A stretch of DNA of 49,780 bases from Candidatus Celaenobacter antarcticus. Its GTDB lineage: Bacteria; Cloacimonadota; Cloacimonadia; JGIOTU-2. Location: NCBI GenBank assembly GCA_030765865.1, contig JAVCDK010000038.1:1-49780 (forward strand), given 5' to 3'. The notes below the pieces were generated by a model. The model did no database searches. It had not been told where the DNA came from and saw nothing but the letters and a program-made list of their open reading frames with translations. The position numbers and the translations under genes are program-made. Of this stretch, positions 11,948 through 45,956 are shown piece by piece. Each line of letters begins with the position of its first letter. Position 1 is the stretch's first letter.

Positions 11948-12009
11948 ATTCATTAGCAGAAATATAGTAAATAGCTAAATAAAAGATTAATGTTTTGAAA
12001 AAAAGGGAT

Positions 12010-18433: not shown

Positions 18434-19456
18434 ATGGTCGTTTCAAAATCCGATCTAATTAAATTTTTCGATACAGTACAATCTGAATTTGATATTTTTG
18501 TTCCCTATCAAACTGAGAGGGAAAAGGACGATCTCGTATTCAAGCAATATGATTCTGAAAAGGAATTTGTGCTCGATAAATACCGTACTATTGATCCAGT
18601 GCGAACTCTATTTTATTTGCCTTCAGAAAGTGTGCTTCCCCCTTCTGCAAAAACTAATAAAAGAATTATTGCAGGTGTGAAAAACTGTGATCTTCTCGGG
18701 CTTGCTGTTCTGGACGATGCACTTCTCAATGATAATTTTGTAGAGCCAAATTACAAAATCTGGAGAGATAGTTCCTATATCATAAGCTGCGATTGTACAG
18801 ATGCATTGCAGACATGTCATTGTGTTTTGCTTGATAATAATCCATATCCAAATAATGACACAGAAGGCGATGCATTATTTGATCTAAATGTTTCTCCAGT
18901 TGAAGATAAATTCATTATTGAGGTTGGCAGCAAGAAGGGAGAAGAACTTCTTGAGAAGATCAAGGAAGTTTGTACGCTTACAGAAGTCACTAATAATGAT
19001 AAAGAAATTCGCGAAGCAAATCATGCTGAGGTTCTCAAAAAAGTCCGTGATATAAATTCTGATTTTACACAGGACAGACATTATGATGTCATCACAGAGA
19101 ACAAGGAAGCTTCTGTATGGAAAGAGTTCTGCAATGAATGTGTGCAGTGCGGCGCATGTACAAATATTTGCCCGACGTGTTACTGCCTAATTCTTAATGA
19201 TGAAAGCACGAAAGAAGAATTCCGCAAGGTTCGTTCGTGGGATTCCTGTCAGCTTGTAGGATATGCAGAAGTTGCCGGCGGAGGAACTCCCCGCGAGCAC
19301 AGATGGGAAACCTTCAGAAACCGCTATCAGTGCAAATACAATTTCATGAAATTCAATTTCGATAAATTAGGATGCACAGGATGTGGGCGTTGTATTTCCG
19401 CCTGTCCTGCTGAAATCGATTTACGAGAAGTTATTCAAAGTTTACAGGAGGTTTAG
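18434..19456 (+). CDS. 4Fe-4S dicluster protein, sulfhydrogenase beta (HydB)-like / AsrA-like
   Basis: CNECVQCGACTNICPTCYCL and CTGCGRCISACPAEIDLREV ferredoxin motifs. Confidence 0.8.
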   Translation: MVVSKSDLIKFFDTVQSEFDIFVPYQTEREKDDLVFKQYDSEKEFVLDKYRTIDPVRTLFYLPSESVLPPSAKTNKRIIAGVKNCDLLGLAVLDDALLNDNFVEPNYKIWRDSSYIISCDCTDALQTCHCVLLDNNPYPNNDTEGDALFDLNVSPVEDKFIIEVGSKKGEELLEKIKEVCTLTEVTNNDKEIREANHAEVLKKVRDINSDFTQDRHYDVITENKEASVWKEFCNECVQCGACTNICPTCYCLILNDESTKEEFRKVRSWDSCQLVGYAEVAGGGTPREHRWETFRNRYQCKYNFMKFNFDKLGCTGCGRCISACPAEIDLREVIQSLQEV

Positions 19457-19457
19457 G

Positions 19458-20285
19458 TTGCCAGACAAAAACCCCTACGAAGTATTAAAAGCAGATGTCC
19501 TTGATGTCATCGAAGAATCTCCAACGATCAAATCTTTCTATCTTAAACCCGAAAGCCCCTTTGAGTTTGCCACAGGTCAGTTTATTGAGCTCTCATTACC
19601 AGGAATTGGTGAGGCGCCATTCACTCCATCATCATCTCATTATGAAACGGAAAAAATGTGGGTGACCATCATGAATGCCGGATTTGTGACAAATGAAATT
19701 CACAAAGTTCAAAAAGGTGATGTCATGGGTATTCGCGGACCCTATGGAAAGGGTTATCCTCTTGATAAGTTCAATGGAAAAGATGTCCTTCTTCTTGGTG
19801 GTGGTGTAGGACTTGCGCCTCTTCGGTGCCTGCTCCAAACCATGATCCATGATGCCAAAGATTACAAAAGTATCACTGTATGCTTTGGTGCAAGAACTCC
19901 TGCGGATATGATCTACCAGGATCAGATCGATGACTGGAAGAGTGTTGGCGGAGTTCGTCATCTCTGTACAGTCGACAAATGCTCTGAAGGTGACAAATGG
20001 CATGGAAAGACAGGCGTGGTCACAGTTCTGTTGGATGACGTCATTATTGATCCCAAAGATGCTATCGCAATTGTTTGTGGACCTCCTATCATGATGAAGT
20101 TTGGAACTTTCTCTTTGATTGATAAAGGTTTCAAGCCGGAGAATATTTATCTCTCAATGGAGAAAAAGATGTACTGCGGATTTGGCCAGTGCAGGCATTG
20201 CGTGATTGGTAAATATTATGCCTGCAAAGATGGTCCCGTGTTCACCTATGAACAGATCAAAGACGAAGAAAAGATCTGGGATTAA
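19458..20285 (+). CDS. FAD/NAD(P)-binding oxidoreductase, sulfhydrogenase gamma (HydG)-like / AsrB-like, TTG start
   Basis: CAGGAGGtttaggTTG; GQFIELSLPGIGEAPFTPSS, VLLLGGGVGLAPLRCLL, [2Fe-2S] motif MYCGFGQCRHCVIGKYYACKDGP. Confidence 0.85.
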   Translation: MPDKNPYEVLKADVLDVIEESPTIKSFYLKPESPFEFATGQFIELSLPGIGEAPFTPSSSHYETEKMWVTIMNAGFVTNEIHKVQKGDVMGIRGPYGKGYPLDKFNGKDVLLLGGGVGLAPLRCLLQTMIHDAKDYKSITVCFGARTPADMIYQDQIDDWKSVGGVRHLCTVDKCSEGDKWHGKTGVVTVLLDDVIIDPKDAIAIVCGPPIMMKFGTFSLIDKGFKPENIYLSMEKKMYCGFGQCRHCVIGKYYACKDGPVFTYEQIKDEEKIWD

Positions 20286-20308
20286 TTATTTTCGTGAGAG
20301 GATTTTAA

Positions 20309-20830
20309 ATGTTAGAAAAGGAAGTTGAAAAGAGATTTGGGTTGAAAAACTTTTTATATCTCTTTTTCTTTTTGATTGTTATATGGCTTGCCCTTACCAC
20401 AACATTTCAATGGCAAGAACTTATTGTCGGTATTTTCATCAGTTTGGTTCTCGCATTATTTTTAAATAAGAACTATATTGAATTAGGACTTCCTTCTTTA
20501 ACCATAAAAAAAGTCGCATTTATTATTGTATATATATTTGTCCTTTTTACAGAAATAATAAAAGCTAATTTTGATGTAGCATATAGGGTAATTCATCCAA
20601 AGATGCCGATAAAACCAGGAATTGTAATCATCAAGACAGAATTGAAGCAGGATATTGCCAAAATGATTCTGGCAAATTCGATTACTTTGACTCCTGGCAC
20701 ATTTACGCTGGACATTAAAGGGGACAAGCTTCTTATACATTGGATATATGTCCGTTCCGAAGGTATAGAAGAGTCTACAAAAAATATTGGTGAACGATTT
20801 GAAAAATATTTAAAGGTGATATTTGCATGA
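20309..20830 (+). CDS. Mrp antiporter subunit E-like (MbxA position)
   Basis: ANFDVAYRVIHPKMPIKPGIV..ANSITLTPGTFTLDIKGDKLLIHWIYV is the MnhE signature. Confidence 0.9.
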   Translation: MLEKEVEKRFGLKNFLYLFFFLIVIWLALTTTFQWQELIVGIFISLVLALFLNKNYIELGLPSLTIKKVAFIIVYIFVLFTEIIKANFDVAYRVIHPKMPIKPGIVIIKTELKQDIAKMILANSITLTPGTFTLDIKGDKLLIHWIYVRSEGIEESTKNIGERFEKYLKVIFA

Positions 20831-20840
20831 AGGATTTATT

Positions 20841-22193
20841 ATGTGTAAAAAAGAGATATTGATTATAGGCGGAAGTGCAGCAGGTATTACTGCCGCTATT
20901 ACTGCAAGAAGATATTATTCGGACGCTAGGATTACTATCATTCGTAAAGAAAAGGAAGTCTTAATTCCTTGTGGTATTCCATATATTTTTGGAACTCTTG
21001 GGTCGGCAGAGGAAGATATTATTGCTGATACTGTGCTATCAAAAAATAATATAGAGCTGATTATAGACGAAGTCATTTCTATAAATAAAGGCAACAGAAT
21101 TGTTAAAACTGCTGATGGGAAAACTCTTAAATATGATAAAATGATTTTAGCAACAGGGTCTTCGCCATCTATACCACCGATACCTGGCAGTGATATTGAG
21201 AATGTATTTCCTATAAAGAAAGAAATAAATTATATAAAGAAAATTCTAAGTAGAGTAAATGTGTCAAAGAATGTGTTAATAATCGGCGGCGGATTTATTG
21301 GTCTTGAGTTTGCTGATGAATTAAACAAAAAGAAGAATTTAAATGTTACAGTAATAGAACTTCTCCCATATTGTCTTCTTTTGGCCTGTGACGATGAATT
21401 TTGTAAAAAAGTAGAAAAAGCACTTATAGATAGAGGTATTAATCTATTAACTGAAAGAAAATCAAAAGCAATTTTAGGAGATAAAAAAGTAGAAGCTGTA
21501 GAATTAGAAAATGGTCAAAGAATCAATGCGGATTTAGTAATTTTGTGTACTGGGATTCATCCAAATATTAATTTAGCATTAAATGCTGGTTTAATGGTAG
21601 ATCGAAGAAAGGGTATAGTGGTTAATGATTTCATGATGACAAGTGATAATAATATTTTTGCTGCAGGTGATTGTACTCAAAAAAGATGTTATCTTAGCGG
21701 GGCACCGATTGTAATGGGATTAGCATCTATAGGTTCTACTCAAGCCAGGATAGCAGGAGCGAACTTATTTGGAGTCCGCCGAAGAATGGAATGTGCTGTT
21801 GGCATATTTTCTACACGTTTTGGTGAACTTGCGGTAGGTTCTGCCGGATTGACCCAGAGAGCTGCAGAAGGTAATAATATCGATGTGATAATAAGCCAGG
21901 CGATTGCACCAGATAAACATCCGGGTTATCTTCCTGAGACTTGTGAGACCGGTGTAAAATTGATTTTTGAAAGGGATACAGGTTTACTTATAGGTGGACA
22001 GGTTTATGGTGGCGCATCAGTTGGAGAATTAATCAATTTTATAGGTTCTCTTATCCAAACTAAAAAAAGGGCAGATGAAATATGTACTTTCCAAATAGGC
22101 ACTCACCCTTTATTAACCGCTTCCCCGATGGCATATCAGATTATTAATGCATCTCAAGTTGCTTTAACAGATTTGAGAAAAGTGAGGTTATAA
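20841..22193 (+). CDS. CoA-disulfide reductase / NAD(P)H sulfur reductase (NSR)-like flavoprotein, no rhodanese domain
   Basis: ILIIGGSAAGITAAITAR, active-site region VLIPCGIPYIFG (Cys44), VLIIGGGFIGLEFADEL, IFAAGDCTQ. Confidence 0.82.
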   Translation: MCKKEILIIGGSAAGITAAITARRYYSDARITIIRKEKEVLIPCGIPYIFGTLGSAEEDIIADTVLSKNNIELIIDEVISINKGNRIVKTADGKTLKYDKMILATGSSPSIPPIPGSDIENVFPIKKEINYIKKILSRVNVSKNVLIIGGGFIGLEFADELNKKKNLNVTVIELLPYCLLLACDDEFCKKVEKALIDRGINLLTERKSKAILGDKKVEAVELENGQRINADLVILCTGIHPNINLALNAGLMVDRRKGIVVNDFMMTSDNNIFAAGDCTQKRCYLSGAPIVMGLASIGSTQARIAGANLFGVRRRMECAVGIFSTRFGELAVGSAGLTQRAAEGNNIDVIISQAIAPDKHPGYLPETCETGVKLIFERDTGLLIGGQVYGGASVGELINFIGSLIQTKKRADEICTFQIGTHPLLTASPMAYQIINASQVALTDLRKVRL

Positions 22194-22450
22194 TGGATTC
22201 AACATTGCTTGTTTTTATGGTAATTATAGGAATAGGCATTTTTCTAAGTTTTTTGCGTATGTTAATTGGTCCTACTGCATCTGATAGAGCTGTTGCAGTT
22301 GATACTATTACCACAACTGTAGTTGCTTTACTGGTTCTATTAGGTTTTGTTTTCAAAAGATATGTTTACCTCGATGTTTCACTGGTATATTCTTTATTGG
22401 CTTTTGTTGGACTAGTCGCTATTGCAAGATTTCTGGAAAAGGGGATTTAA
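22193..22450 (+). CDS. Mrp antiporter subunit F-like (MbxB position)
   Basis: FLRMLIGPTASDRAVAVDTITTTVVALLVL; MnhF-like. Confidence 0.88.
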   Translation: MDSTLLVFMVIIGIGIFLSFLRMLIGPTASDRAVAVDTITTTVVALLVLLGFVFKRYVYLDVSLVYSLLAFVGLVAIARFLEKGI

Positions 22451-22783
22451 ATGGAATTATTTGGTGTGATAATTACAGGAATTGGTGTAATGTTTTTATT
22501 TCTTGGAAATCTTGGCATTCTGCGACTACCTGATGTTTACAATCGGATTCAAGCAGGGACAAAATGCACAACTCTGGGTGCTGTTCTCACTATTATGGGT
22601 GTTGGGATAATGCAGCCAGCCTGGCTCTGGAAATGTCTGCTTATTGCATTATTTGTTTTGGTGACAAATCCCATTTCCAGCCATGCAATAGCCAGGGGTT
22701 CCCATAAAAGTGGAGTTCCTCTATGTGATAGAAGCGTTGTGGATAAGTCGGAAGAATTTGAGGAATATAAGGAGGAAAAATGA
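22451..22783 (+). CDS. Mrp antiporter subunit G-like (MbxC position)
   Basis: LGILRLPDVYNRIQAGTKCTTLGAV..NPISSHAIARGSHKSG; MnhG signature. Confidence 0.9.
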   Translation: MELFGVIITGIGVMFLFLGNLGILRLPDVYNRIQAGTKCTTLGAVLTIMGVGIMQPAWLWKCLLIALFVLVTNPISSHAIARGSHKSGVPLCDRSVVDKSEEFEEYKEEK

Positions 22784-23019
22784 TAATTGTGGTTTCTTTG
22801 TTGATAATCTTAATGCTAATTTCCGCAATTGCAGCACTTATTTATAAGGATTTGATTAGTGCAGTGATTGCTGCTTGTATGGTCAGTTTAATAGCAGCAG
22901 TACTATTCTATTTTCTTCAAGCGCCTGATGTAGCGATGGCTGAAGCATCTATTGGAGCAGCATTGGTCACTGCTATATTTGTTATAGCAATCCGAAGAAC
23001 AAGAAGGCATGAAGAATGA
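22780..23019 (+). CDS. DUF4040 / MbhD-like subunit (MbxD position)
   Basis: 79 aa, YFLQAPDVAMAEASIGAALVTAIFVIAIRRTRRHEE; 4-nt overlap with upstream gene. Confidence 0.85.
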   Translation: MIIVVSLLIILMLISAIAALIYKDLISAVIAACMVSLIAAVLFYFLQAPDVAMAEASIGAALVTAIFVIAIRRTRRHEE

Positions 23020-23699
23020 GAAAAATTATCGGTATTATCTTATTAATTATTATTTGTTGGGGAATTATTTTAGCCCTACATAAAATCCCTTTTGGAATAC
23101 CAAAAACAAAAGTTGGCGAATATTATATAGATAAAGGAAGGGAAGAAACGGGAGCTGCAAATATTGTTACGTCAGTAGTAGTTAATTATCGTGGATTTGA
23201 TACACTGGGCGAAGTTACAATACTTTTTTTGGCAGCAATTGGATTGGGAGCTGTTTTGTCGAACTTCAAGGAAAAAGGAAAAAGGAAAATTGAACTGGCC
23301 AGTTTAATACTGAAAACAGGTTGTCGTTTCTTATTTCCTTTAATACTTCTTTTTGGTGCGTATATTTTTATTCATGGACATCTTACTCCTGGGGGCGGCT
23401 TCCAGGGGGGAGCTATTATTGCGTCCGCTTTCCTTCTCGTTTATCTTGGTTGCCGTGGAAGGATATTCAATGAAGTTGGTTGTAAAATTACTGAATCCCT
23501 AAGCGGTTTGGTTTTTATCGTGATGGGATTAATTGGTTTGACAGTTGGGGGACACTATTTTCTATCCAATTTCATGCTGACAGGTCAGATAAATACTTTA
23601 TTCAGTGCAGGCATAATACCAATAATTTATATCGCAATCGGACTGAAAGTCGGTTCGGAATTGACGGGGGTTATTGATAATTTAATGGAGAAAAGTTAA
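23016..23699 (+). CDS. MbhE + MnhB/MbhF-like fused subunit (MbxF position)
   Basis: ANIVTSVVVNYRGFDTLGEVTILFLAAIGLGAVL followed by IHGHLTPGGGFQGGAIIASAFLLVYL. Confidence 0.88.
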   Translation: MRKIIGIILLIIICWGIILALHKIPFGIPKTKVGEYYIDKGREETGAANIVTSVVVNYRGFDTLGEVTILFLAAIGLGAVLSNFKEKGKRKIELASLILKTGCRFLFPLILLFGAYIFIHGHLTPGGGFQGGAIIASAFLLVYLGCRGRIFNEVGCKITESLSGLVFIVMGLIGLTVGGHYFLSNFMLTGQINTLFSAGIIPIIYIAIGLKVGSELTGVIDNLMEKS

Positions 23700-24058
23700 T
23701 GGATTTTTTATCTAATTATATTTATTACATTGGTGCTTTCGGACTTATATTTATTGGTCTTTTTATTATACTGGTAAAGCATAACCTGATCAAAGTAATA
23801 ATAGGAATAGGCATTCTTGATACGGGGGTAAATCTATTTATCGTTGCTGTGGGTTATATAAGCAAAGGAACTGCTCCTATATTTTCCAAATCCGGTCTCG
23901 ATGCTAAGAATATGGTTGATCCGGTTCCTCAGGCTTTGGTGCTGACATCTATTGTAATCGGAGTTGCGATATTAGCTCTTGCTCTTTCTTTAGCAATAAG
24001 ATTATATCAGCATTACGGAACACTTGATCTTCGTAAGATAAAGGAGCAAAGATGGTAA
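23699..24058 (+). CDS. Mrp subunit C / NuoK-like (MbxG position)
   Basis: HNLIKVIIGIGILDTGVNLFIVAVG...DPVPQALVLTSIVIGVAILALAL. Confidence 0.9.
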   Translation: MDFLSNYIYYIGAFGLIFIGLFIILVKHNLIKVIIGIGILDTGVNLFIVAVGYISKGTAPIFSKSGLDAKNMVDPVPQALVLTSIVIGVAILALALSLAIRLYQHYGTLDLRKIKEQRW

Positions 24059-25521
24059 ATCCTGTTCTGTTAATTGTTGTACCGCTTGTACTTGCTTTTG
24101 CATTACCCTTGGTGGGTTTGATCTCAAAAAAGAATATCAAATATATTCCGGTTCTTGCTTTTCTTTTTAATTTTGTTATTTCATTACTATTAATACCTAA
24201 AGTTCTGCATCAAGCCATCATTGTAAAAATCGGTGGTTTTCTTCCTCCCTTTGGGATCAATCTGTTCGTAGGACCTGTTGGCATTTTATTTTCTACTTTG
24301 ATTGCATTAGCGGGATTATTAGTTTCCATTTACGCTTTATCATATATTAAAGAGGGTTCGAAAGAAAAATACCATATCCTTTATCTTCTACTATTAACCG
24401 GAGCAACAGGTGTAGTTCTTACAGGAGATATGTTTAATCTTTTTGTTTTTTTTGAAATTCTCTGCATTTCATCTTATGCCCTTGTGGCCTATCTCGGGAA
24501 CAAAGCGGGAATTGAATCTTCAATAAAATATCTTATTCAGGGTTCGGTTGGTTCCAGTCTCCTTTTGTTGGGTATAGGTTTACTTTACGGACAATTAGGT
24601 ACTCTTAATATGGCAGACATTGCTAACCAAATTCATTCTTCAAGTTCACCATCGATATTTGTTCCAATGGTACTTATGATAACAGGTTTAGGAGTTGAAG
24701 CAGCAATATTTCCACTTAATGCCTGGCTGCCTGATGCACACTCTTCTGCTCCTTCATCCATTAGTGCGATTCTTTCCGGTATTGCTATTGAAGTGGGGCT
24801 TTATGCTGTAATTAGAATTATATTCACAATATTTAATGCATCAAGTTTCTTGATGTTTTTCATTTTCTTAGGTGTATTAACACTTCTAATCGGTGAGATG
24901 TCTGCATTCAGTCAGAAGAATATAAAAAGAATGCTGGCTTATTCAAGTATTGGCCAAATTGGTTTAATCATGTTTGCAGTTTCGCTTAATACACAATACG
25001 GAGTAAGTGCCGGACTTTTCCAGATGATAAGTCATACTCTCGGCAAAGGGTTATTGTTTTTGGCAGCAGGATATATGATCTATCGCAGCGGTTCTATGGA
25101 TATTTCTTCTTTTGAAGGTATAGGTAAAAAAATGCCTTATACATCATTGGCTTTTACAATTGGTACTTTTTCTATTATAGGATTACCGCCGTTTATTGGA
25201 TTCGCAAGTAAATTTATGGTTATAAAAGCGGCTCTTGCAAAAGAAGGGATAATATTTACCGTTCTTATAGGACTTGCTCTTATAGGAACTATTATTGAAA
25301 GTGCGTATTTTTTCAGAGTTGTGCAGGTGATTTATTTTAAGAAAGGAAATGGAAATCAGGTAAGGAAAGAAGCTCCTATCACTGGATTAATTCCAATGTT
25401 TATATTTGCACTCTTGATAATATTTATCGGAGTTTATCCAAATTTTATAATCAAGATTTTAAATTCAGCGGCTTCAGAGCTTCTTAATCGAATAGACTAC
25501 ATAAGGAGTGTTTTAGGATGA
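24052..25521 (+). CDS. Mrp subunit D / NuoN-like antiporter subunit (MbxH position)
   Basis: GDMFNLFVFFEILCISSYALVA, PLNAWLPDAHSSAPSSISAILSGI proton/ion-translocating module motifs. Confidence 0.9.
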   Translation: MVNPVLLIVVPLVLAFALPLVGLISKKNIKYIPVLAFLFNFVISLLLIPKVLHQAIIVKIGGFLPPFGINLFVGPVGILFSTLIALAGLLVSIYALSYIKEGSKEKYHILYLLLLTGATGVVLTGDMFNLFVFFEILCISSYALVAYLGNKAGIESSIKYLIQGSVGSSLLLLGIGLLYGQLGTLNMADIANQIHSSSSPSIFVPMVLMITGLGVEAAIFPLNAWLPDAHSSAPSSISAILSGIAIEVGLYAVIRIIFTIFNASSFLMFFIFLGVLTLLIGEMSAFSQKNIKRMLAYSSIGQIGLIMFAVSLNTQYGVSAGLFQMISHTLGKGLLFLAAGYMIYRSGSMDISSFEGIGKKMPYTSLAFTIGTFSIIGLPPFIGFASKFMVIKAALAKEGIIFTVLIGLALIGTIIESAYFFRVVQVIYFKKGNGNQVRKEAPITGLIPMFIFALLIIFIGVYPNFIIKILNSAASELLNRIDYIRSVLG

Positions 25522-27377
25522 CTTTGGAACTTTTACTTATAGTTGCTTTTGGCGGTGCATTTCTTACATATTTTTTAGGCAAGATTTCCTCTAGTCTTAG
25601 GAATGGTTTTGCAGTACTCAATGCATTAGCATTAGTGGTTATGACTGCTTTTTTATACGGTCAAACTGTGGAGAAAAATCTCCATTTCGGATTTTTAGGT
25701 ATGCCATTTGTCCTGAGAATAAATATGCTCTCATGGTTCTTTGCTATTACAATTGTTGGTATTGGTCTATTATCAATTATTTATTCTCTTAAATATATAG
25801 AAAATGGGAAAAAGTTGGATTTTTATTATTTTACGACATTACTTATTAATGCCAGTATGTTGGGAACTGTAATTTGTGGTGATTTAATATCATTTTATAT
25901 GTTCTGGGAGATAATGAGTTGGAGCACTTATCTGTTAATAAGTTACAAGGGGGGGGACAAGGCACTTTTTGCTGGAATAAAATATATAATTATGTCAATT
26001 ATTGGATCACTTGCGATGCTTGTTGGTATTATTAGTTTATATACTCATTTTGGGACTCTGGAGATATCAACCTTAGCTATCCAGATACAAGGTGCTTCCC
26101 TAAATTATATTCTCTTCATTTTAATTATGTTCTCTACGGCTTTTATAATTATTAATGCGTTTTGGCCCCTCCATATCTGGCTTCCTGATGCACATGCAGA
26201 AGCTGTATCCCCATTTTCATCAATACTTTCTGCGGTATTAGTAAGAAAAGGTATGTATGGACTCTATCTGTTTATGTATGTTATATTGGGATTAAATATT
26301 CTGAATAGATTAAAATTCGGTTTCATAAGTTTTACTGGAGTATTTTGCTGGATAGGAGCTATTACCATAGTATTTGCAGCATTAACTGCTTTATTACAAA
26401 ATGATTCTAAGAGAATTCTTGCATGGAGTACTGTCGGACAAGGTGGTTATATGATTTTAGGGGTTGCTTTTGTAACTCCTTTGGGAATGGCAGGTGGTAC
26501 ATTTCATATTCTAAATCACTGTATTTATATAGCCTTACTTTTTTTTGTCGCTGGAGCCATTGAATACCGAACCGGAGGTATTAGAGACTTAAATTCACTT
26601 GGTGGTTTGATTAAAAAGATGCCTGTAACTTTTATAGGAGGTTTAGTCGGCATATTTGGTTTAATTGGCTTGCCGTTGACTAATGGTTTCGTTTCAAAAT
26701 GGTTAATATATAAAACATTAATACTTGGAAATCGTCCATTTTTAGCTTTCGCTGCATTTCTGGGTACATGGGGTACTGTTTTATATGGATACAAATTTAT
26801 TCATAATATATTTTTAGGACAGTTACCCGAAAAGTATAAAAATATTAAAGAAGTTCCTTTTACGATGCGAATACCAATAATTATATTAACAATATTGGTT
26901 TTTTTATTTGGCATACTTCCTGGTATTCCTCTAAAAGTAATTAATGCTATTGGTATTTCTTTAGGTTTTGAATCATTAGATGTTACATTATGGGGGATTG
27001 CTTCAGAAACTGGTACATTGAATACTATAAATATTTTTGCTGCAATACTAATCGTTGGAATAATCATTTGGTTAATTTTTAAAGCAGGTAGAAAAGCTCC
27101 CAAAGTTGACCAATATGATAATTATGCTGCTGGTTCAGCTATCCCCAAAAATAAATATAACTACACAGTTGATTATTATTATCCCTTTACTAAAATGATT
27201 TCTCCTTACCTCAAGGATATTTTTGATCTATTTTACACGAAGATTGCAAACACAGTACAGAAACTCTGCAATAGCACAAGAAAAATTTACACTGGATATG
27301 TTGGTAGTTATGTAATGTATATCGTTCTGTTTTTGGCTATACTGATTTTAGTACAATTAAAATGGGGTGTATTCTAA
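25518..27377 (+). CDS. Second antiporter-like NuoL/M subunit (MbxH' position)
   Basis: GDLISFYMFWEIMSWSTYLLISY, PLHIWLPDAHAEAVSPFSSILSAVLVRKGMYG, SKRILAWSTVGQGGYMILG. Confidence 0.9.
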   Translation: MTLELLLIVAFGGAFLTYFLGKISSSLRNGFAVLNALALVVMTAFLYGQTVEKNLHFGFLGMPFVLRINMLSWFFAITIVGIGLLSIIYSLKYIENGKKLDFYYFTTLLINASMLGTVICGDLISFYMFWEIMSWSTYLLISYKGGDKALFAGIKYIIMSIIGSLAMLVGIISLYTHFGTLEISTLAIQIQGASLNYILFILIMFSTAFIIINAFWPLHIWLPDAHAEAVSPFSSILSAVLVRKGMYGLYLFMYVILGLNILNRLKFGFISFTGVFCWIGAITIVFAALTALLQNDSKRILAWSTVGQGGYMILGVAFVTPLGMAGGTFHILNHCIYIALLFFVAGAIEYRTGGIRDLNSLGGLIKKMPVTFIGGLVGIFGLIGLPLTNGFVSKWLIYKTLILGNRPFLAFAAFLGTWGTVLYGYKFIHNIFLGQLPEKYKNIKEVPFTMRIPIIILTILVFLFGILPGIPLKVINAIGISLGFESLDVTLWGIASETGTLNTINIFAAILIVGIIIWLIFKAGRKAPKVDQYDNYAAGSAIPKNKYNYTVDYYYPFTKMISPYLKDIFDLFYTKIANTVQKLCNSTRKIYTGYVGSYVMYIVLFLAILILVQLKWGVF

Positions 27378-28312
27378 TGCAAATTTCGGAATTTATTCTA
27401 TCACCACTTTTAGCTTTGATTATTGGTATATTCTTTTTAGGTTTAGCAAGAAAGATAATGGCAAGAATACATTGGCGTTATGGTCCTCCCATTACTCAAC
27501 CAGTTATAGATATTATCAGGATGTTCAGTCAAAAAGCAATAAGTCATGGATCAATATTCAATTTTGGATTAATTTTTTCGTTAACAGGATCTATTGTTGT
27601 CATCTTATTTCTTCCAATCGGGAAAATGTGTCCATTAAGTTCTGGGGGTTTATTGGTAATATTGTATCTTATGCTTTTAGCTCCTTTAGGAATAGCACTA
27701 AGCAGTGGTGAAGCAGCTAATCCTAATTCCAGTATCGGAGTATCAAGAAAATTTCTTCTGGCTCTGGGATATGAGGTTCCGTTTCTGCTTATTCTTCTTG
27801 CAGTTATGGCACATTATCATACTATTTCATTAATTGAAATAGTGAGAATACAAGCAAATACAGGATGGTCTTTTGGTTCTTTACCTTTGGTATTATCTGG
27901 GATTGCTTATTTTTTGATACTTCCAGCTATATTAGGTATGAGACCTTTTGAAATTTCGGGCGCAGCTCAGGAAATTTCTTCAGGTCCAAAGGTAGAATTT
28001 GGCGGAAAATTTTTAGCTTTTTCTACAATACAACATGCCTTACATGAATTTATTGGTATTTCGCTTTTTGTAAATCTATTTCTTGGAGGTTGGGATTTGT
28101 TTGGGATTTTAGAACCCATCTCAAATACAATATGGGGTATTATTTTGGGGATAATCATTTTCTTAATAAAAATGGTAATAATATTTATTATAGAACTTTT
28201 TATAAATGCAGTGTTTCCCCGCTTCAGAATTGAGCAAGCAATGAAATATTTATGGAAATGGCCTACATTATTATCTTTTATCGGGCTTCTTATAGTAGTT
28301 TTATTTAATTAA
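27377..28312 (+). CDS. NuoH-like membrane subunit (MbxM position)
   Basis: ARIHWRYGPPITQPVIDIIRMF, MRPFEISGAAQEISSGPKVEFGGK; TAATG start overlap. Confidence 0.9.
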   Translation: MQISEFILSPLLALIIGIFFLGLARKIMARIHWRYGPPITQPVIDIIRMFSQKAISHGSIFNFGLIFSLTGSIVVILFLPIGKMCPLSSGGLLVILYLMLLAPLGIALSSGEAANPNSSIGVSRKFLLALGYEVPFLLILLAVMAHYHTISLIEIVRIQANTGWSFGSLPLVLSGIAYFLILPAILGMRPFEISGAAQEISSGPKVEFGGKFLAFSTIQHALHEFIGISLFVNLFLGGWDLFGILEPISNTIWGIILGIIIFLIKMVIIFIIELFINAVFPRFRIEQAMKYLWKWPTLLSFIGLLIVVLFN

Positions 28313-28330
28313 CAATTAAAGGTAATTTAT

Positions 28331-28888
28331 ATGGATAGAAATAAAATTAGTAAATGGTTGAAAAATCCCGGTAAAATGGCACACAAATATTCATTTCATG
28401 TTGTATATTTTTGTACGGGATGTGGAATTATTGAAATCCCACCTTCTATCACTGCAAGATGGGATGCAGAACGATTTGGTATAATACCCGTAGCTACACC
28501 CAGACAGGCAAACCTGTTTTTAATTACAGGATATGTTTCAACAAAAACATTAAAAGCAATCATAAGAACTTACGAGCAAATGCCTGACCCTAAATATACG
28601 GTTGCATTAGGTTCCTGTCCCATAAATGGTGGAATGTACTATGATTCCTATAATACTATCACAAGCTTGGATAAGTACATTCCTGTAGATGGTTATATCG
28701 CAGGCTGTATGCCACGCCCGGAAGCAATATTTATTGGAGTTACTCATTTATGGAAGTTGATCGATATGGATAAAGCTGACGGATATAAAAGATACAGAGA
28801 AGATTATGTGCATTACCGTGCAAACCAGGAACAACTTTTTGGTGAGTTGGAATGGCCTCCATTATTCATAAAGGAAATAGTAAAATGA
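28331..28888 (+). CDS. NuoB-like small subunit carrying proximal 4Fe-4S cluster (MbxJ position)
   Basis: YFCTGCGIIEIPPSIT, ALGSCPINGGMYYD, IAGCMPRPEA: four conserved Cys. Confidence 0.92.
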   Translation: MDRNKISKWLKNPGKMAHKYSFHVVYFCTGCGIIEIPPSITARWDAERFGIIPVATPRQANLFLITGYVSTKTLKAIIRTYEQMPDPKYTVALGSCPINGGMYYDSYNTITSLDKYIPVDGYIAGCMPRPEAIFIGVTHLWKLIDMDKADGYKRYREDYVHYRANQEQLFGELEWPPLFIKEIVK

Positions 28889-29406
28889 CTGATTTAAAGC
28901 AAATGCTTTTATCCGGGTTTGACGATATTAATATCAATATTCCTGAAGATAACAGAATGGTTGTAAGTACAAAAAAAGAAAGTGTATTATCAATATTAAT
29001 CTATCTGAAAAAATTTGGATATAACCATTTTGCACTTGTTTCTTGTAATGATTGGATTGATGATAACGAGTTTGAATTAATCTATATAGTTTCTGCTTAT
29101 CAAAAAAATGACGAACAATATCAAGATATTGAAAAAAGTAGTATCATAGTAAAAACAAGAATTTCCCGAGAAAAGGCAAAGTTTATAACAATCATAGATA
29201 TTTTTGAAAATGCAGAACCTTATGAACGAGAAATCCATGAAATGTTCGGAATAAATTTTGAAGGACATCCACGATTAACACCGCTAATGCTTGAAAGAAA
29301 TTACAAGATTCCCCCTTTCAGAAAAGATTTTGATACAAATAAATATGTAGAAAACACTTTTGGAAAAATTCCTTCTATTAAAGAAAGGAAAGAAGGAAAT
29401 AAATGA
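28885..29406 (+). CDS. NuoC-like subunit (MbxK position)
   Basis: IDIFENAEPYEREIHEMFGINFEGHPRLTPLMLERNYKIPPFRKDF. Confidence 0.9.
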   Translation: MTDLKQMLLSGFDDININIPEDNRMVVSTKKESVLSILIYLKKFGYNHFALVSCNDWIDDNEFELIYIVSAYQKNDEQYQDIEKSSIIVKTRISREKAKFITIIDIFENAEPYEREIHEMFGINFEGHPRLTPLMLERNYKIPPFRKDFDTNKYVENTFGKIPSIKERKEGNK

Positions 29407-30503
29407 GAGAACTTGAATTATATTTTGGACCTCAGCATCTCGGAATGGTGGGGAACTTTAGCATAACACTCAAAGTGGAAGGTGATAGAATAATAAAAGC
29501 AAGTGCGAACCCGGGATATTTACACCGTGGATTTGAAAAACTGATGGAACAGAGAACCTGGATACAAAACTTCCCATTAGTATGCCGAATAAATGTTGTG
29601 GAACCTGATCACATGGAATTGATTTATTCCATGGGTGTGGAAAAATTGGCAGGGATTGAAGTTCCGAAAAAAGGTAAATATATCAGAAGTATCTACTGTG
29701 AGATGGCTCGAGTTGCATCACATTTATTTGGAGCATGGGCTTATGCTAATATGCTTGGCTTTGACACTGTTGCGAATTGGGCAATGTATCATAGGGATCT
29801 TCTGCTGGATATGTTCGAAGAACTTACCGGTGCAAGAGTTTATCATATTTACATACGTCCCGGTGGAGTAAGACGGGATTTTCCAGATGGATTTACTGAT
29901 AGATTAGTAAAAACATTACACAAAATCGGCGGGAAAGTACCAGATTATAATGCTCTTTTTTTTGAAAATAGATTGTTTAAAGAAAGAGCAGAAGGAATCG
30001 GAGTTGTTACACGTGAAGAAGCAATTCGTATGGGTGCTGTAGGGCATACCATAAAAGCAATTGGAATGGAGTATGACATTAGAAAAATAGAGCCCTACGC
30101 TGCATATGATCAGGTGGATTTTAATATTCCAACCAGAACTGGCGGAGATGCTTATTCTCGGCTTTTAGCAATCCGAGATGATATGATCGAAAGTGTTCAT
30201 ATGATATTCAAGCTTATAGATAAAATGCCCACTAATGGTGAGGTTTGTACTAAAACCCCAAATCCGTTCAAATGGAAAGTACCAGCCGGAGAAGCTTATG
30301 TAAGATGTGAATCATCCCGTGGTGAATTGGGACTTTACATGGTGAGTAATGGGGGAGATAAACCTTATAGAGTTCATTTTAATACACCATCGTATAATCA
30401 CGGTCTTACGGTTTTGGAAAAAGCGCTTGAAGGTGAAAGCATTGCTGATGTAGGCAATATTATGATTAGTTTGTATGTAGTACCTCCAGAAATAGATCGA
30501 TAA
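29403..30503 (+). CDS. NuoD / group 4 hydrogenase large-subunit homolog lacking [NiFe] ligands (MbxL position)
   Basis: LYFGPQHLGMVGNFSITLKVEGDRI; N-terminal motif is LVCRINVVEPDH instead of RICGIC; C-terminus SLYVVPPEIDR instead of DPCxxC. Confidence 0.92.
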   Translation: MRELELYFGPQHLGMVGNFSITLKVEGDRIIKASANPGYLHRGFEKLMEQRTWIQNFPLVCRINVVEPDHMELIYSMGVEKLAGIEVPKKGKYIRSIYCEMARVASHLFGAWAYANMLGFDTVANWAMYHRDLLLDMFEELTGARVYHIYIRPGGVRRDFPDGFTDRLVKTLHKIGGKVPDYNALFFENRLFKERAEGIGVVTREEAIRMGAVGHTIKAIGMEYDIRKIEPYAAYDQVDFNIPTRTGGDAYSRLLAIRDDMIESVHMIFKLIDKMPTNGEVCTKTPNPFKWKVPAGEAYVRCESSRGELGLYMVSNGGDKPYRVHFNTPSYNHGLTVLEKALEGESIADVGNIMISLYVVPPEIDR

Positions 30504-30522
30504 TAAAAAAATGGAATGATAT

Positions 30523-32382
30523 ATGAATAAGACAAATTTTTTAAATCCTTTTAAGGCAATAAAATATCTTTTTGAAAAACCAAAAACACTAAGATACCCG
30601 TTTGAAACAAAAGAGATTGCTGACAGATATAGAGGATTTCATAAAAATGACTGGGATAAATGTACCGGATGCGGAAATTGCGCTGATATATGTCCTAATA
30701 AAGCTATCATTATGGTTAAAATTGATGAACTGATAGCAAAACCGGAAGAAGGCATGAAAGATGAAAGGCCTCAATTAGATTATGGAAGGTGCTGTTTCTG
30801 TGGTTTGTGCGTTGATATTTGTCCACCCGGATCCCTATCTCTCACTAAAGATTTTTTTCATATTCATTTTGATACAGATACTTTTAAATTTATTCCAAAA
30901 GATGAAAAAAATAATAAAGAAATTTTTAAATCTGAGGATGATTATTCCATTTTTAATGCAAGCCTTTCTCACCGAAAAGAGAATTATGGAGGATTCTCCC
31001 CTGATATACGTTATGCTTTGTTTGAACCTGATAGAATAGAAATGCCTGAGATAGAACCTGATGAGCGTAAATTATCTTTTATTGAGCAGGTGATTGGATA
31101 TGATAAAGATCAGGCCAGAGAAGAAGCAGGGCGATGTTTGGAATGTAAACTTTGTGAAGAAGCTTGTCCTGCTCATCTTAAAATATCAGATTATATTGAT
31201 GCAATATATCGCGAAGAACCAAAAGAATCACTTGAGAAAATATTTGAGGATAATCCAATTCCTTCAATCTGCGGAAGAATATGTATGGCACATTGTGAAG
31301 ATGCCTGTTCATTACATATAAGAGGAGATTCACTTGCTATCAGATGGATTAAAAGATATGCTGCTGATACTATTAAAAATTTCAAAGAAGAACTTGAGAT
31401 ACATCCAGGCAAACCTACAGGAAAGAAAATTGGTATCATAGGTGCCGGTCCAAGTGGCTTGTCATTGGCATACTTTCTACGGCTTCAAGGTCATGAAGTT
31501 GTTGTTTATGATGAATTAACTGGTGGCGGGGGAGCAATCAGAATAGGTCCACCAGCATATAGACTTCCTCTTGAGGCAATTGATAAAGATGTTAATTATA
31601 TAAAATCTTTGGGAGTTGAGTTTAATTTTAATACTAAAGTAGGAAGAGATGTAAAATTTGAAGATATATTTAAGAGTAATGATGCTGTCTTCATTGGAAT
31701 TGGAAACACAATAAGTTTTTCTACAAGAGTTCCAAATTCAGATAAATGCATATTTGCTCTTGATTTTCTAAAAGATAATAAAATTGGCGAAATGAGGAAA
31801 GTTGATAAAAATGTTATAGTCATTGGTGGTGGAAATGTAGCAATGGATGTGGCAAGAGAAACTACAAGACTTCAGCATATTCAATATCCAGGACAAGAAG
31901 TAGTAACTAAAACAGTCTCATTAGAAGATTGGGATGAATTGCCGGCTACGGATTTGGAAATAAAAGAAGCAAAAGAAGAAGGTATTAAATTTAATCCAGC
32001 TTGGGGTCCAAAAGAAGTTGTACTTGATGATAAAGGAAACATTTCTGGACTTTTATGTAAGAAAGTGAAGTCAGTGTTTGACGAAGATGGAAAATTTTCT
32101 CCTACTTTTTACGAAGAAAAGGAAAAATTTTTAGAAGGTGGTATGATAATCGAAGCAATTGGGCAAAGACCTGATTTTTCATTTCTTCCTGATGAACTGA
32201 ATAAAAAACTGGAATTCACAGAAAGAAGGAAAGTAAAAGTAGATGAAAATGGGATGACAACTATCCCCAAAATCTTTGCCGGAGGCGATATAGTTAACAT
32301 TAATTTAGATGCAGTTACAGCAATTGCAGATGCAAAAATCGCCGCAGAGGGCATAAATAAATATTTTAACAAAAATCAATAA
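30523..32382 (+). CDS. Fusion of a NuoI/MbxN-like 2x[4Fe-4S] subunit to a GltD/NfnB-like NAD(P)H flavoprotein
   Basis: CTGCGNCADICPNKAI...CCFCGLCVDICPPGSL, then CLECKLCEEACPA, CGRICMAHCEDAC, KKIGIIGAGPSGLSLAYFLRLQGHEVVVYD, VIVIGGGNVAMDVARE, IFAGGDIVN. Confidence 0.92.
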   Translation: MNKTNFLNPFKAIKYLFEKPKTLRYPFETKEIADRYRGFHKNDWDKCTGCGNCADICPNKAIIMVKIDELIAKPEEGMKDERPQLDYGRCCFCGLCVDICPPGSLSLTKDFFHIHFDTDTFKFIPKDEKNNKEIFKSEDDYSIFNASLSHRKENYGGFSPDIRYALFEPDRIEMPEIEPDERKLSFIEQVIGYDKDQAREEAGRCLECKLCEEACPAHLKISDYIDAIYREEPKESLEKIFEDNPIPSICGRICMAHCEDACSLHIRGDSLAIRWIKRYAADTIKNFKEELEIHPGKPTGKKIGIIGAGPSGLSLAYFLRLQGHEVVVYDELTGGGGAIRIGPPAYRLPLEAIDKDVNYIKSLGVEFNFNTKVGRDVKFEDIFKSNDAVFIGIGNTISFSTRVPNSDKCIFALDFLKDNKIGEMRKVDKNVIVIGGGNVAMDVARETTRLQHIQYPGQEVVTKTVSLEDWDELPATDLEIKEAKEEGIKFNPAWGPKEVVLDDKGNISGLLCKKVKSVFDEDGKFSPTFYEEKEKFLEGGMIIEAIGQRPDFSFLPDELNKKLEFTERRKVKVDENGMTTIPKIFAGGDIVNINLDAVTAIADAKIAAEGINKYFNKNQ

Positions 32383-32399
32383 CATCAAAAGGAGTTATT

Positions 32400-32786
32400 A
32401 TGCTAAAATTGTTAAAAGCAAAAGATATCATGATGAAGGAAGTAATAACTATTGGACCAGATATTCTATTAAAAAAAGCAATAAAAAAATTACTTGAGAA
32501 TGAAATTAGTAGTATGCCTGTAGTAGATGACACAGGGGAAATGGTAGGTATTATTTCTTGTGTAGATATTCTTAATTTAGCATTCGATGGTTATCTCAGT
32601 AATACAAAAGTTGAAATGGTTATGACAAAGAATGTTGTTTATTTTAAACCTGACACAAATGTAGAGGAAATTGCTTTTGCTATTTCTAAAAACCATTTCC
32701 ATAGAATACCAATTGTTAAGGATGGTAGAATAGTAGGAATTGTTTCGCGAAGAGATATTATTAAAAGTGTGCTTTCGTTTATATGA
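32400..32786 (+). CDS. Stand-alone tandem CBS domain protein
   Basis: KAKDIMMKEVITIGPDILLKKAIKKLLENEISSMPVVDDTGEMVGIIS...HFHRIPIVKDGRIVGIVSRRDIIKSV. Confidence 0.92.
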   Translation: MLKLLKAKDIMMKEVITIGPDILLKKAIKKLLENEISSMPVVDDTGEMVGIISCVDILNLAFDGYLSNTKVEMVMTKNVVYFKPDTNVEEIAFAISKNHFHRIPIVKDGRIVGIVSRRDIIKSVLSFI

Positions 32787-32952
32787 AAATTGAATTAATT
32801 ATTAAAATCTCAATTGAGACACATAACATATATTGATGAAAAATGAAAATAAAATTTGCGAAAAAGAATAGCCACGAGATCATACCAAGAGAGTTTATCC
32901 TAAGTATTGTCAGTGTTAGCTTGTGGCATAATTACGAAGGAAAGACAGTATC

Positions 32953-33459
32953 ATGAAAAGATTATTTGTAGATATACCTAAGCTTCTAAAAGAAGAAAGT
33001 CTCGAATGCATTGATTGTGAATATCTGTATCACGAAGGGGCTAATCGCGGTGTATTTTCTATTGTAGAAATCGCAGAATTCGGTGCTTATTGCCGCCAGT
33101 GCAAGGAATCTTTCTGCATCGAAGCGTGCCCCAATGACGCACTTGAGCATAGCAAGACCAACATGATATTGCGTCATAATATGCGCTGCGTTGGTTGTAA
33201 AAGCTGTATACTTGCATGCCCTTTTGGTACGATCTTTCCAGAGGTTATTAACTATATTTCTCAAAAATGTGATTTCTGTTTAAATCAATTGGAAATTGAT
33301 CCAAACTATGTTCCGCTTTGTGTAAAAACTGCACCAAATGAGACTTTGAAAATGGTCGATATAGATAAAGATGATCCTGAAAATAATATTTATCTTGTCG
33401 GCAGCAGAATGGCAGTAAAGACACATCATTGGCGCAACAAAGTCGGGAAAAATAAATAG
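32953..33459 (+). CDS. HycB/CooF-like 4Fe-4S electron-transfer protein
   Basis: CRQCKESFCIEACPNDALEHS, CVGCKSCILACPFGTIFP, CDFCLNQLE. Confidence 0.88.
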   Translation: MKRLFVDIPKLLKEESLECIDCEYLYHEGANRGVFSIVEIAEFGAYCRQCKESFCIEACPNDALEHSKTNMILRHNMRCVGCKSCILACPFGTIFPEVINYISQKCDFCLNQLEIDPNYVPLCVKTAPNETLKMVDIDKDDPENNIYLVGSRMAVKTHHWRNKVGKNK

Positions 33460-33487
33460 TGTAGGATGGCAAGGTTCAGGAGATAAT

Positions 33488-34417
33488 ATGCTAAAATATT
33501 TGTTCTATTTGCTCGTGTTCCCGGGTTTTCTGTTTGCATCTGTATTCGGTCTTATCGTAGGATGGATAGAGAGAAAGGTCAGCGCACGAGTACAATTCCG
33601 TGTTGGTCCTCCATTTTTTCAGAATTTTTATGATGTATTCAAGCTGTGGGGAAAAGAGATCATTCTTATAAGGAGTACACCCTATTTCATATTTGTCATT
33701 GCACCGATCATTGCCTTTGCAACAGTAGTTATGACCTCTACGATCGTGGGTGTGGCTTTTTTCTACCGAGTCGGCATCGGGGGAGATCTGATTTTCATAG
33801 TATATCTCATGGTCATATACTCCGTCGCGCTGATACTTGGAGCATCCTCGACCGGTAATGTATATTGCAGCATCGGCGCCGGAAGAGAAATGAAAATGCT
33901 CATTGCCGACGAACTGGCTTTCATACTGGTTATTTTTGTCCCGATCATTCGGGCAGGATATAAGATCGATCTTACACAAATTTTGGCATATCAAAGCGAC
34001 AATGGCATGATCGTTGGAACTGCATCAGGTATTATTGCATTCATTGTCGGGATACTCTGCCTTCAAGCGAAAATGGGTATGGTGCCCTTTGATATTGCGG
34101 AAGCAGAAACTGAAATTGTCGGAGGTCCGCTCATGGAGTATTCCGGTCCATTGCTTGCATTCTGGAAACTGGCGCATTATATGATGTATGTTTTTCTGCC
34201 AATGCTACTTGTGATCCTTTTCTGTGGCGGCATGAGCTTTGCATCCTTTGGCACGATCATGGCAGGGATAGGAAAGTATCTACTTATTGTTGTGCTTATG
34301 ATACTGATAAGAAATACAAATCCCCGTGTGCGTATTGATTCTGCAATTAATTTCTTCTGGAAATGGGCAAGCCCCCTTGCTCTTATCGCCGTAATTCTGG
34401 CAATCATAGGAGTGTAA
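33488..34417 (+). CDS. NuoH-like membrane subunit of hydrogenase complex 2 (MbhM-type)
   Basis: ERKVSARVQFRVGPPFFQNFYDVFKLWGKE; MVPFDIAEAETEIVGGPLMEYSG. Confidence 0.92.
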   Translation: MLKYLFYLLVFPGFLFASVFGLIVGWIERKVSARVQFRVGPPFFQNFYDVFKLWGKEIILIRSTPYFIFVIAPIIAFATVVMTSTIVGVAFFYRVGIGGDLIFIVYLMVIYSVALILGASSTGNVYCSIGAGREMKMLIADELAFILVIFVPIIRAGYKIDLTQILAYQSDNGMIVGTASGIIAFIVGILCLQAKMGMVPFDIAEAETEIVGGPLMEYSGPLLAFWKLAHYMMYVFLPMLLVILFCGGMSFASFGTIMAGIGKYLLIVVLMILIRNTNPRVRIDSAINFFWKWASPLALIAVILAIIGV

Positions 34418-34420
34418 ATT

Positions 34421-34840
34421 ATGGCTTTTTATAATAAAATTATTAAGAAATCAATCTGGGTTTTCCATGTAAGTGCAAGCCCTTGTAACAACTGCGATAT
34501 AGAAATTCTCGATCTGATCACACCCGGATATGATGTGGAGCGCTTCGGTATCAAACTGGTCGGCTCAGTCCGGCATGCTGATGTACTTCTTGTGACTGGC
34601 ATAGTATCTTATAAAGTTGCACCCCGTATCAAACAGTTGTACGAACAAGCTGCCAAACCTATTTTTGTAATCGGTATCGGGACGTGCACAGCAGGTGGCG
34701 CAACCTTCAAAACAAGTTATAATAAAGCAGGAGTCCCACTTGATAAAGTTATTCCTGTAAATGCCTATGTGACGGGATGCCCTCCCAAACCAGAAGCTAT
34801 GATCGACGGCGTATTAAAATTGTTAGGAACATTAAAATGA
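34421..34840 (+). CDS. [NiFe] hydrogenase small subunit, NuoB-like (MbhJ-type)
   Basis: SASPCNNCDIEILDLITPGYDVERFG, GIGTCTAGG, VTGCPPKPEAMIDGVLKLLG. Confidence 0.92.
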   Translation: MAFYNKIIKKSIWVFHVSASPCNNCDIEILDLITPGYDVERFGIKLVGSVRHADVLLVTGIVSYKVAPRIKQLYEQAAKPIFVIGIGTCTAGGATFKTSYNKAGVPLDKVIPVNAYVTGCPPKPEAMIDGVLKLLGTLK

Positions 34841-35286
34841 GCGATAAAGGCACAGAATTTTTTGAAAAATTTCAAGATAAAATAACGAGAGTTATTAAGA
34901 AGCCAAGAAGAAATTATTTCAATGTAAAGAACGAGGACATTTGGGAGATTGCAGATTATCTCTTCAATACAATGGGCTGCCGCCTCTCTGTCTGCACTGC
35001 TACTGAGGTGTATGACGGGCTCGAAGTTCTTTACCATTTCTCTGATGATACAACTGGAATTTATTATAATCCACGTGTGAAAACCAGTCTTGAAAATCCT
35101 GAAATAAATTCAATAACACCACTGATCGAAGGTGCAAACTGGATCGAAAGAGAAATGTACGATCTTTTTGGTATTAAGTTCAAAGGACATCCCGATTTGA
35201 AAAAATTGCTGACCATCAACAATCCGCATTTTAGTGAGGATGACCATCCAATGCGTTTTAATCGCAACAGAACAAAAGAGAAGTAA
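34837..35286 (+). CDS. NuoC-like subunit (MbhK-type)
   Basis: EGANWIEREMYDLFGIKFKGHPDLKKLL; ATGA overlap with upstream gene. Confidence 0.88.
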   Translation: MSDKGTEFFEKFQDKITRVIKKPRRNYFNVKNEDIWEIADYLFNTMGCRLSVCTATEVYDGLEVLYHFSDDTTGIYYNPRVKTSLENPEINSITPLIEGANWIEREMYDLFGIKFKGHPDLKKLLTINNPHFSEDDHPMRFNRNRTKEK

Positions 35287-35310
35287 CAGGTTTATGCAGA
35301 GGAGCATGTA

Positions 35311-36528: not shown

Positions 36529-36553
36529 GATTTCAAGAAGAAAGGGTACATAA

Positions 36554-38368: not shown

Positions 38369-38384
38369 TTTTAAGGAGGCTTAA

Positions 38385-39363: not shown

Positions 39364-39366
39364 AAT

Positions 39367-45729: not shown

Positions 45730-45731
45730 TA

Positions 45732-45953: not shown

Positions 45954-45956
45954 GTT

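Follow-up and report, generated by a model that had tools for sequence, protein, structure and literature searches.

The membrane-bound sulfane reductase (MBS, also called MBX) has been seen mainly as an archaeal complex that serves sulfur respiration and connects hydrogenases with complex I. In this complex, the cluster of subunit J has three cysteine ligands and itself reduces S-S bonds, whereas subunit L lacks the NiFe, proton, and quinone residues (PMC7684303). Expression of nsr and mbxA in Thermotoga maritima rises on S0 (PMC9431562), as does that of the MBS genes and Nfn2 in strain 3DAC (PMC10356935). Here, an MBS/MBX operon is described from a 49,780-nucleotide contig of Candidatus Celaenobacter antarcticus, a member of the Cloacimonadota (JAVCDK010000038.1 of assembly GCA_030765865.1); the whole of this stretch is referred to as the window. 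The segment 20309-32786 carries the complete set of 13 subunit genes together with a CoA-disulfide reductase (CoADR)-like gene and a CBS gene. Judging from the affinities of its subunits, this operon probably encodes a membrane-bound, ion-pumping reductase of S-S bonds (in sulfane, polysulfide, or organic persulfide) of the MBS/MBX kind.

Subunits of the MBS/MBX operon

The original prediction described 17 co-directional genes at 18434-32786 as a single Mbx/Mbs-like unit with added genes. Open reading frame lists and family scans recovered all 17 at these positions, on one strand and mostly overlapping or a few bases apart, but the genes form two units, namely, the MBS/MBX operon itself and the hydBG pair of a hydrogenase operon (see below). 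The predicted archaeal gene order holds for the former: genes E, F, G, D, E/B, C, H, H', M, J, K, L, and N match MbsA, B, C, D, E, G, H, H', M, J, K, L, and N of Pyrococcus furiosus (PMC7684303).

Four subunits, J, L, H', and N, are all closer to P. furiosus MBS than to complex I or the membrane-bound hydrogenase (MBH). Among solved structures, L matches MbsL with 345 bits, compared with 241 for complex I and 134 for MBH; the corresponding scores for J are 227 (MbsJ, 6u8y_J), 124, and 117. The second antiporter-like subunit H' matches MbsH' (6u8y_X) with 244 bits and MbhH with 200, and the N-terminal domain of N has MbsN as its top match (126 bits as a profile, versus 56 for the N subunit of MBH). 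In the phylogenetic tree of L, complex I falls outside the set of MbsL and all bacterial sequences (SH-aLRT 99), so that L groups with MbsL, in line with the affinity originally proposed; MbsL itself is a long branch whose exact place is unsure.

The residues at the active site point the same way. Across the operons in which N is fused to a flavoprotein (next section), C28, C93, and C123 of J are kept in 68 of 68 sequences, the loop is shortened as in MBS, and the CC pair of complex I is missing; the J subunit of the window aligns with MbsJ free of gaps across FCTGCG. The window L has N, V, V, and V at the positions of MbsL C85, MbsL C385, Nqo4 H38, and Nqo4 Y87, respectively, and, as in MBS, it also lacks the MBH glutamate and the NiFe ligands. 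Neither H38/Y87 of Nqo4 nor the CC pair of NuoB, the hallmarks of complex I, is present. The two MbsL cysteines are replaced throughout the clade that includes the window, by N plus V, T, or I in all 31 L sequences.

Compared with P. furiosus MBS (6u8y; PMC7684303), the window operon is thus alike in the 13 subunits and their order, the ligands and loop of J, the two antiporter-like pumps, and the lack of NiFe and quinone residues. It differs in that N is fused to an NfnL-like flavoprotein, L is devoid of C85 and C385, a CoADR-like gene stands between A and B, a CBS gene is added, and the whole operon is nested within a hydrogenase operon. Relatives of the gene set occur outside this single assembly and include Thermotogaceae loci with a fused N, as the original prediction had suspected for Thermotogae.

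The fused N subunit and the CoADR-like gene

The gene for N, originally counted as an added GltD fusion, proved instead to be the form that N normally takes in bacterial MBX, across at least 15 phyla. The protein matches the NCBIfam model PRK13984 (NF010590, “putative oxidoreductase”) over its full length, with 683 bits across residues 2-618; this score lies below the model's cutoff of 946, and the model has no named function. The fusion stands with Mbx genes in 41 of 125 genomes of the phylum and, among the best 80 of 548 confirmed matches in a collection-wide survey, in taxa labeled Thermotogae, Halanaerobiales, Spirochaetes, Bacteroidota, Caldiserica, and Zixibacteria, among others.

The C-terminal part of the fusion is nearer to NfnL/NfnB than to GltD (NfnL, 388 bits). 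With NfnL/NfnB (5jca, 4ylf) and DsrL (PMC7596348), it shares two [4Fe-4S] clusters, FAD, and nucleotide domains, but it sits behind a NuoI/MbsN domain and is altered at two sites, so that the window has neither the YRR motif nor the Glu117 ligand of Nfn. The YRR triad, which in NfnB binds the NADP phosphate, is SLE or CLE in 83 of 93 fused N sequences (SLE in the window) and is kept in 10, including those of L062, L065, L066, and L067; the fusion family seems to be split by nucleotide preference. Glu117, the odd ligand of the flavin-proximal cluster, is Lys in all 93 sequences, and all eight cluster cysteines are retained in each of them. In relatives of DsrL, loss of YRR goes with the use of NAD(H) (PMC7596348). 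The YRR and Glu117 changes predict, respectively, that the fused N prefers NAD(H) and that canonical bifurcation has been lost. Both changes look new in this fusion, although Lys at the Glu117 position is also found in 9n5u and hence is not unique to it. An extra cysteine (C250) was considered as a fusion-specific replacement of the lost Glu ligand, but a Cys at the same position in T. maritima NfnB and in DPD weakens this idea.

Some bacterial Mbx operons depart from the common arrangement. For example, in a Spirochaetales metagenome-assembled genome (MAG; L136) and a MAG that groups with it (L120), M, J, K, L, and N, or at least L and N, come ahead of E, F, and the remaining genes. Short contigs of MAGs labeled Thermoplasmata (L077) and Aenigmatarchaeota (L097) also carry Mbx genes of the typical bacterial, fused-N kind, through either mis-binning or transfer to archaea. 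Upstream of mbsA, several clade-B operons (L056, L057, L059, L060, and L062) carry a gene that reads as a TetR-type regulator, whereas several clade-A operons have ArsR or none, which suggests that the two clades may be under different control.

The CoADR-like gene, reported within the operon by the original prediction, is indeed embedded there. Its product is a CoADR/NSR-type flavoprotein with the single active-site cysteine of the CGxPY motif (PCGIPY), and its TIGR03385 score of 250 bits, against a curated cutoff of 578.8, makes it a relative of the family rather than a confirmed CoADR. The same gene, at 63% identity, occupies the mbsA/mbsB junction in two further lineages, a Bacteroidales MAG (L171) and the unclassified CSMAG_1143 (L172), and in both of these an ArsR-type regulator with a conserved pair of cysteines comes next. 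In the tree, the three embedded copies group together as a single clade (support 99). An assembly chimera is ruled out by the identical junction in these two unrelated assemblies. Other CoADR-like genes lie directly after N (L110 and L114), near N in Thermosipho, and, together with ArsR, upstream of mbsA (G034/L055). Altogether, 6 of the 80 fusion-retrieved loci have such a gene within ∼10 kb, where a rough estimate from ∼0.6 copies per genome gives an expectation of well under 1. Because the nearest Mbx relatives are devoid of the gene, it appears to have been either gained or lost repeatedly. A second CoADR-like gene, 38% identical to this one, lies elsewhere in the same genome. T. maritima similarly possesses a bacterial MBX and an NSR/CoADR-type enzyme (TM0379), both S0-induced (PMC9431562), and its MbxN is presumably fused, given the fused N of Thermotogaceae relatives; judged by locus tag, however, nsr (THEMA_RS02810) is far from mbxA (THEMA_RS08165).

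In three loci (L082, L089, and L096), the mbsA/mbsB junction is occupied by ArsR alone. These small regulators, found within or beside Mbx operons of several phyla and missing from the window operon, have invariant cysteines (NEC[NS]V and CY[KRQ]). They match HTH_5; among solved structures, BigR (biofilm growth-associated repressor) is the nearest, and YgaV is one of the further matches. BigR and YgaV are persulfide sensors. The ArsR cysteines are not at the positions of those in BigR; the recurrent two-cysteine ArsR is a candidate sulfur or redox sensor.

Nesting within a HydBG-Mbh hydrogenase operon

The segment downstream of the MBS/MBX operon, 32953-43002, holds the full set of genes for an MBH-type group 4 [NiFe] hydrogenase, as judged by the two CxxC pairs of L (RICGIC and DPCYCC), the Pfam NiFe match, and a small subunit with MbhJ as its top match (151 bits). 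The hydBG genes (18434-20285), originally taken as an addition to Mbx, are the 5' end of this operon. Gene maps of six other genomes, from two Neomarinimicrobiota, WOR-3, Bacteroidales, Cloacimonadota (G034), and Aegiribacteria, show hydB, hydG, ferredoxin, M, J, K, and L to be contiguous. Elsewhere, HydG homologs lie just upstream of MBH genes even when the Mbx operon is on a different contig; hydBG tracks Mbh, and no co-occurrence with Mbx independent of Mbh was found.

Genomes of the same genus that lack the Mbx insert locate its boundaries. In two of these (G003 and G001), synteny extends from tyrS through hppA to hydB and hydG and then straight to the homolog of the gene at 32953, and the window hydB is 84-90% identical to hydB of same-genus genomes with contiguous hydBG-Mbh. 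The distance from the hydG stop to the start of the 32953 homolog is 28-31 bp (L209 and L211), and both window flanks align to this junction; therefore, the intervening ∼12.6 kb (roughly 20287-32927) is a nested Mbx operon. These empty sites, together with the contiguous hydBG-Mbh elsewhere, rule out HydBG as an Mbx module. The same nesting was found in another genus of the family (G009; L054), whereas in Zixibacteria (L078 and L080) and CSMAG_1143 (L085), the two operons are in tandem. An insertion is the simpler account, given how widely hydBG-Mbh occurs as a contiguous unit; the alternative is loss within the genus from a nested ancestor.

An asrAB-Mbh neighborhood is known from Saganbacteria RX5A, the hydrogenase of which groups with Zixibacteria (PMC6349859). 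The asrAB-Mbh-molybdopterin clusters of Saganbacteria and Zixibacteria (PMC6349859) resemble the window operon in having hydBG/asrAB beside a group 4 hydrogenase with Mrp subunits, but in the latter, the molybdopterin enzyme is missing and the MBS operon interrupts the gene series. In the Zixibacteria loci analyzed here, a molybdopterin oxidoreductase (FdhA/Nas-like; L080:13748-15673 and L078:5337-7214) lies between hydG and the Mbh genes, yielding a three-part hydrogenase module. A histidine-kinase-like gene stands between ferredoxin and M of the nested Mbh in two other Cloacimonadota genomes (L054:15191-16165 and L053) and is missing from the window. With its hyp genes, the HydBG-Mbh [NiFe] hydrogenase at 32953-48049 is complete on this Cloacimonadota contig; for the phylum, both an apparent absence of ferredoxin-dependent hydrogenase (PMC13082233) and a group 4g Mbh (PMC8542988) have been reported.

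The contig is genuine Cloacimonadota: its flanking genes are ∼71-95% identical to, and syntenic with, those of same-genus genomes, which rules out mis-binning. Promoter and terminator scans gave signals at background level, and an Rfam search returned one tRNA only. By eye, the TTG at 19458, which follows AGGAGG, is a more likely hydG start than the GTG at 19383, and the CoADR-like gene more likely begins at ATG 20841 than at TTG 20823. Unrelated to the operon, 11995-14259 encodes a protein that looks secreted and has a weak match (55 bits) to a caspase-type, EACC1-associated domain; a 331-aa gene follows.

Features of the window and ArsR copies at compared loci (the latter prefixed with the locus label)
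Feature	Coordinates	Strand	Basis
hydB/asrA-like Fe-S subunit, first gene of HydBG-Mbh operon, not Mbx	18434..19456	+	NCBIfam ShyB/HydB/AsrA matches
hydG/asrB-like FAD/NAD(P)/[2Fe-2S] subunit	19383..20285 (likely start TTG 19458)	+	Family scans; adjoins Mbh operon in six other genomes
Nested insert, ∼12.6 kb, Mbx operon including CoADR and CBS	20287..32927 (ends good to a few bases)	+	Alignment to same-genus junctions
mbsA (MnhE)	20309..20830	+	Pfam MNHE, 142 bits
CoA-disulfide reductase/NSR-like flavoprotein, between mbsA and mbsB	20841..22193	+	TIGR03385, 250 bits; PDB 6pfz, 8a56, 5l1n; tree
mbsB (MnhF)	22193..22450	+	
mbsC (MnhG)	22451..22783	+	
mbsD (MbhD/DUF4040)	22780..23019	+	Pfam MbhD
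mbsE (MbhE+MnhB fusion)	23016..23699	+	Pfam MbhE and MnhB
mbsG (MnhC)	23699..24058	+	
mbsH (MnhD-like proton pump)	24052..25521	+	
mbsH' (second antiporter-like pump)	25518..27377	+	Top PDB match MbsH' 6u8y_X
mbsM (NuoH-like anchor)	27362..28312	+	Family scan
mbsJ (NuoB-like; MBS-type three-Cys proximal cluster)	28331..28888	+	MbsJ 6u8y_J; ligands, loop
mbsK (NuoC-like)	28852..29406	+	Pfam Complex1_30kDa
mbsL (NuoD-like; without NiFe cysteines or quinone residues)	29403..30503	+	MbsL match; residues; tree
mbsN-NfnL fusion: MbsN-type two-cluster ferredoxin domain and NfnL-like domain (two clusters, FAD, predicted NAD site)	30523..32382	+	PRK13984
CBS-pair protein, probable nucleotide sensor	32400..32786	+	Family scans; 68% relative also after N in L074
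Ferredoxin, M, J, K, and catalytic L of HydBG-Mbh operon (L, 35311-36528, RICGIC and DPCYCC intact)	32953..36528	+	
Remaining Mbh genes: H'-like, D/E, B, C, H, E, F, G, N	36554..43002	+	
Hydrogenase maturation: HycI-type protease, hypF, hypD, hypE	43077..48049	+	hypF/D/E read from translations
ArsR copies	L171:8241-8507; L172:7019-7231; L082:1364-1630; L096:1371-1637; L089:1319-1555; L055:3346-3594; L077:3764-4018		

Proposed function and alternatives

In the proposed mechanism, the fused N would take up electrons from reduced ferredoxin, from NADH via its NfnL-like FAD domain, or from both, and would pass them along the [4Fe-4S] clusters to the J proximal cluster with its three cysteine ligands; the S-S bond would be cleaved there, in the chamber formed by L, J, and M. 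The released energy would drive the proton pumps H and H' and the Mrp-type Na+/H+ module. The embedded CoADR/NSR may reduce CoA disulfide or CoA-polysulfide with NAD(P)H and would in this way regenerate CoA and control how much soluble sulfane sulfur is available. HydBG would work with the downstream MBH hydrogenase, not with the MBS complex, and the nesting would place an H2 sink beside a sulfide sink, as in the MBH/MBS pair of P. furiosus. The sulfur and NAD chemistry that the original prediction saw as the common theme of the locus is likely.

Several observations weigh against assignment as an S-S reductase. The window's clade has lost both cysteines that MBS keeps, and its substrate may differ; because C85/C385 mutants of MBS stay active (PMC7684303), this loss is not decisive and represents a clade difference, not a bar to membership in the MBS family. 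The CoADR gene is absent from the nearest Mbx operons (L052, L054, L073, and L074) and hence is not required by the complex. Energetics is a further point: MBS operating from ferredoxin gains 41 kJ per 2 electrons (PMC7684303), whereas transfer from NADH to polysulfide would be a low-energy step that could hardly drive pumping. Since NADH alone would give much less energy, ferredoxin is probably the energizing donor and the NAD-type module a redox link.

Other routes can be drawn for the same electrons. The NfnL-like domain in all 93 fused N proteins and the CoADR/NSR genes nearby in several lineages would also fit an ion-coupled ferredoxin:NAD+ oxidoreductase, in which electrons pass from ferredoxin through N and the fused FAD domain to NAD+, and NADH feeds CoADR, which reduces sulfur; such a scheme follows the older view of P. 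furiosus MBX as a ferredoxin:NADP oxidoreductase (cited in PMC6349859). Coupling in this superfamily, however, needs electron flow to J and L, both of which keep the MBS active-site layout, and this scheme is accordingly possible rather than likely. Flavin-based bifurcation at the fused domain, with NADH electrons split between sulfane (through N to J) and ferredoxin, would accord with NfnL/NfnB as the closest solved relatives and with the full set of cluster cysteines, but it is unlikely in view of the Lys in place of the Glu117 ligand and the lack of an NfnS partner in the Mbx operon, the only NfnS-like protein at the locus being HydG of the hydrogenase operon.

A quinone-reducing relative of complex I could be surmised from the score of L above the cutoff of the NCBIfam NuoD model PRK06075 (416 versus 360 bits), the absence, shared with complex I, of all four NiFe cysteines, and a UbiA-family gene in the genome; nevertheless, with H38, Y87, and the CC pair of J all missing and complex I on the outside in the L tree, it is disfavored and highly improbable. 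The reading of the original prediction, namely, that all 17 genes, HydBG included, form one NAD(P)H-ferredoxin-sulfur complex, draws on their common direction, the mere 23 bp between hydG and mbsA, and the same nesting in G009/L054. It is very unlikely because hydBG runs straight into Mbh in many genomes that have no Mbx beside it, same-genus empty sites among them, and because most Mbx operons have no adjoining hydBG. Within the S-S reductase assignment, a more specific version can be offered, which at present is doubtful: the CoADR-bearing members of the clade might be a distinct respiratory complex in which CoA-bound sulfane sulfur (CoA persulfide, polysulfide, or disulfide) is the carrier to an ion pump fed by NADH and ferredoxin. 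CoADR would then be a dedicated partner or a bound subunit, and the loss of all four cysteines in L and the NAD-type, Lys-for-Glu NfnL module would be adaptations.

A literature search, with most subscription journals outside its range, found no paper describing Mbx with the GltD/NuoI fusion or this gene set, in agreement with the expectation that the set had not been characterized elsewhere. What looks new against that literature is the combination: the N subunit of a bacterial MBS carries an NAD-type NfnL module, its clade has lost all four NiFe cysteines, a CoADR gene, with or without ArsR, recurs as an insert, and the operon lies inside a HydBG-Mbh operon. An MBS with an NfnL-like flavoprotein in the electron-entry subunit extends to at least 15 bacterial phyla, including the cultured Halanaerobium kushneri and Prolixibacter, and because cultured carriers exist, the redox partners are directly testable. 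The clade-wide signatures, that is, loss of the NiFe cysteines with the MBS cluster kept, the NAD-type site, and Lys for the Nfn glutamate, translate into concrete mutants, and the repeated presence of CoADR and ArsR at a single site suggests that CoA-linked sulfur chemistry accompanies an ion pump. The locus thus hints at a route by which certain anaerobes may link the chemistry of sulfur, NADH, and hydrogen to the conservation of energy.

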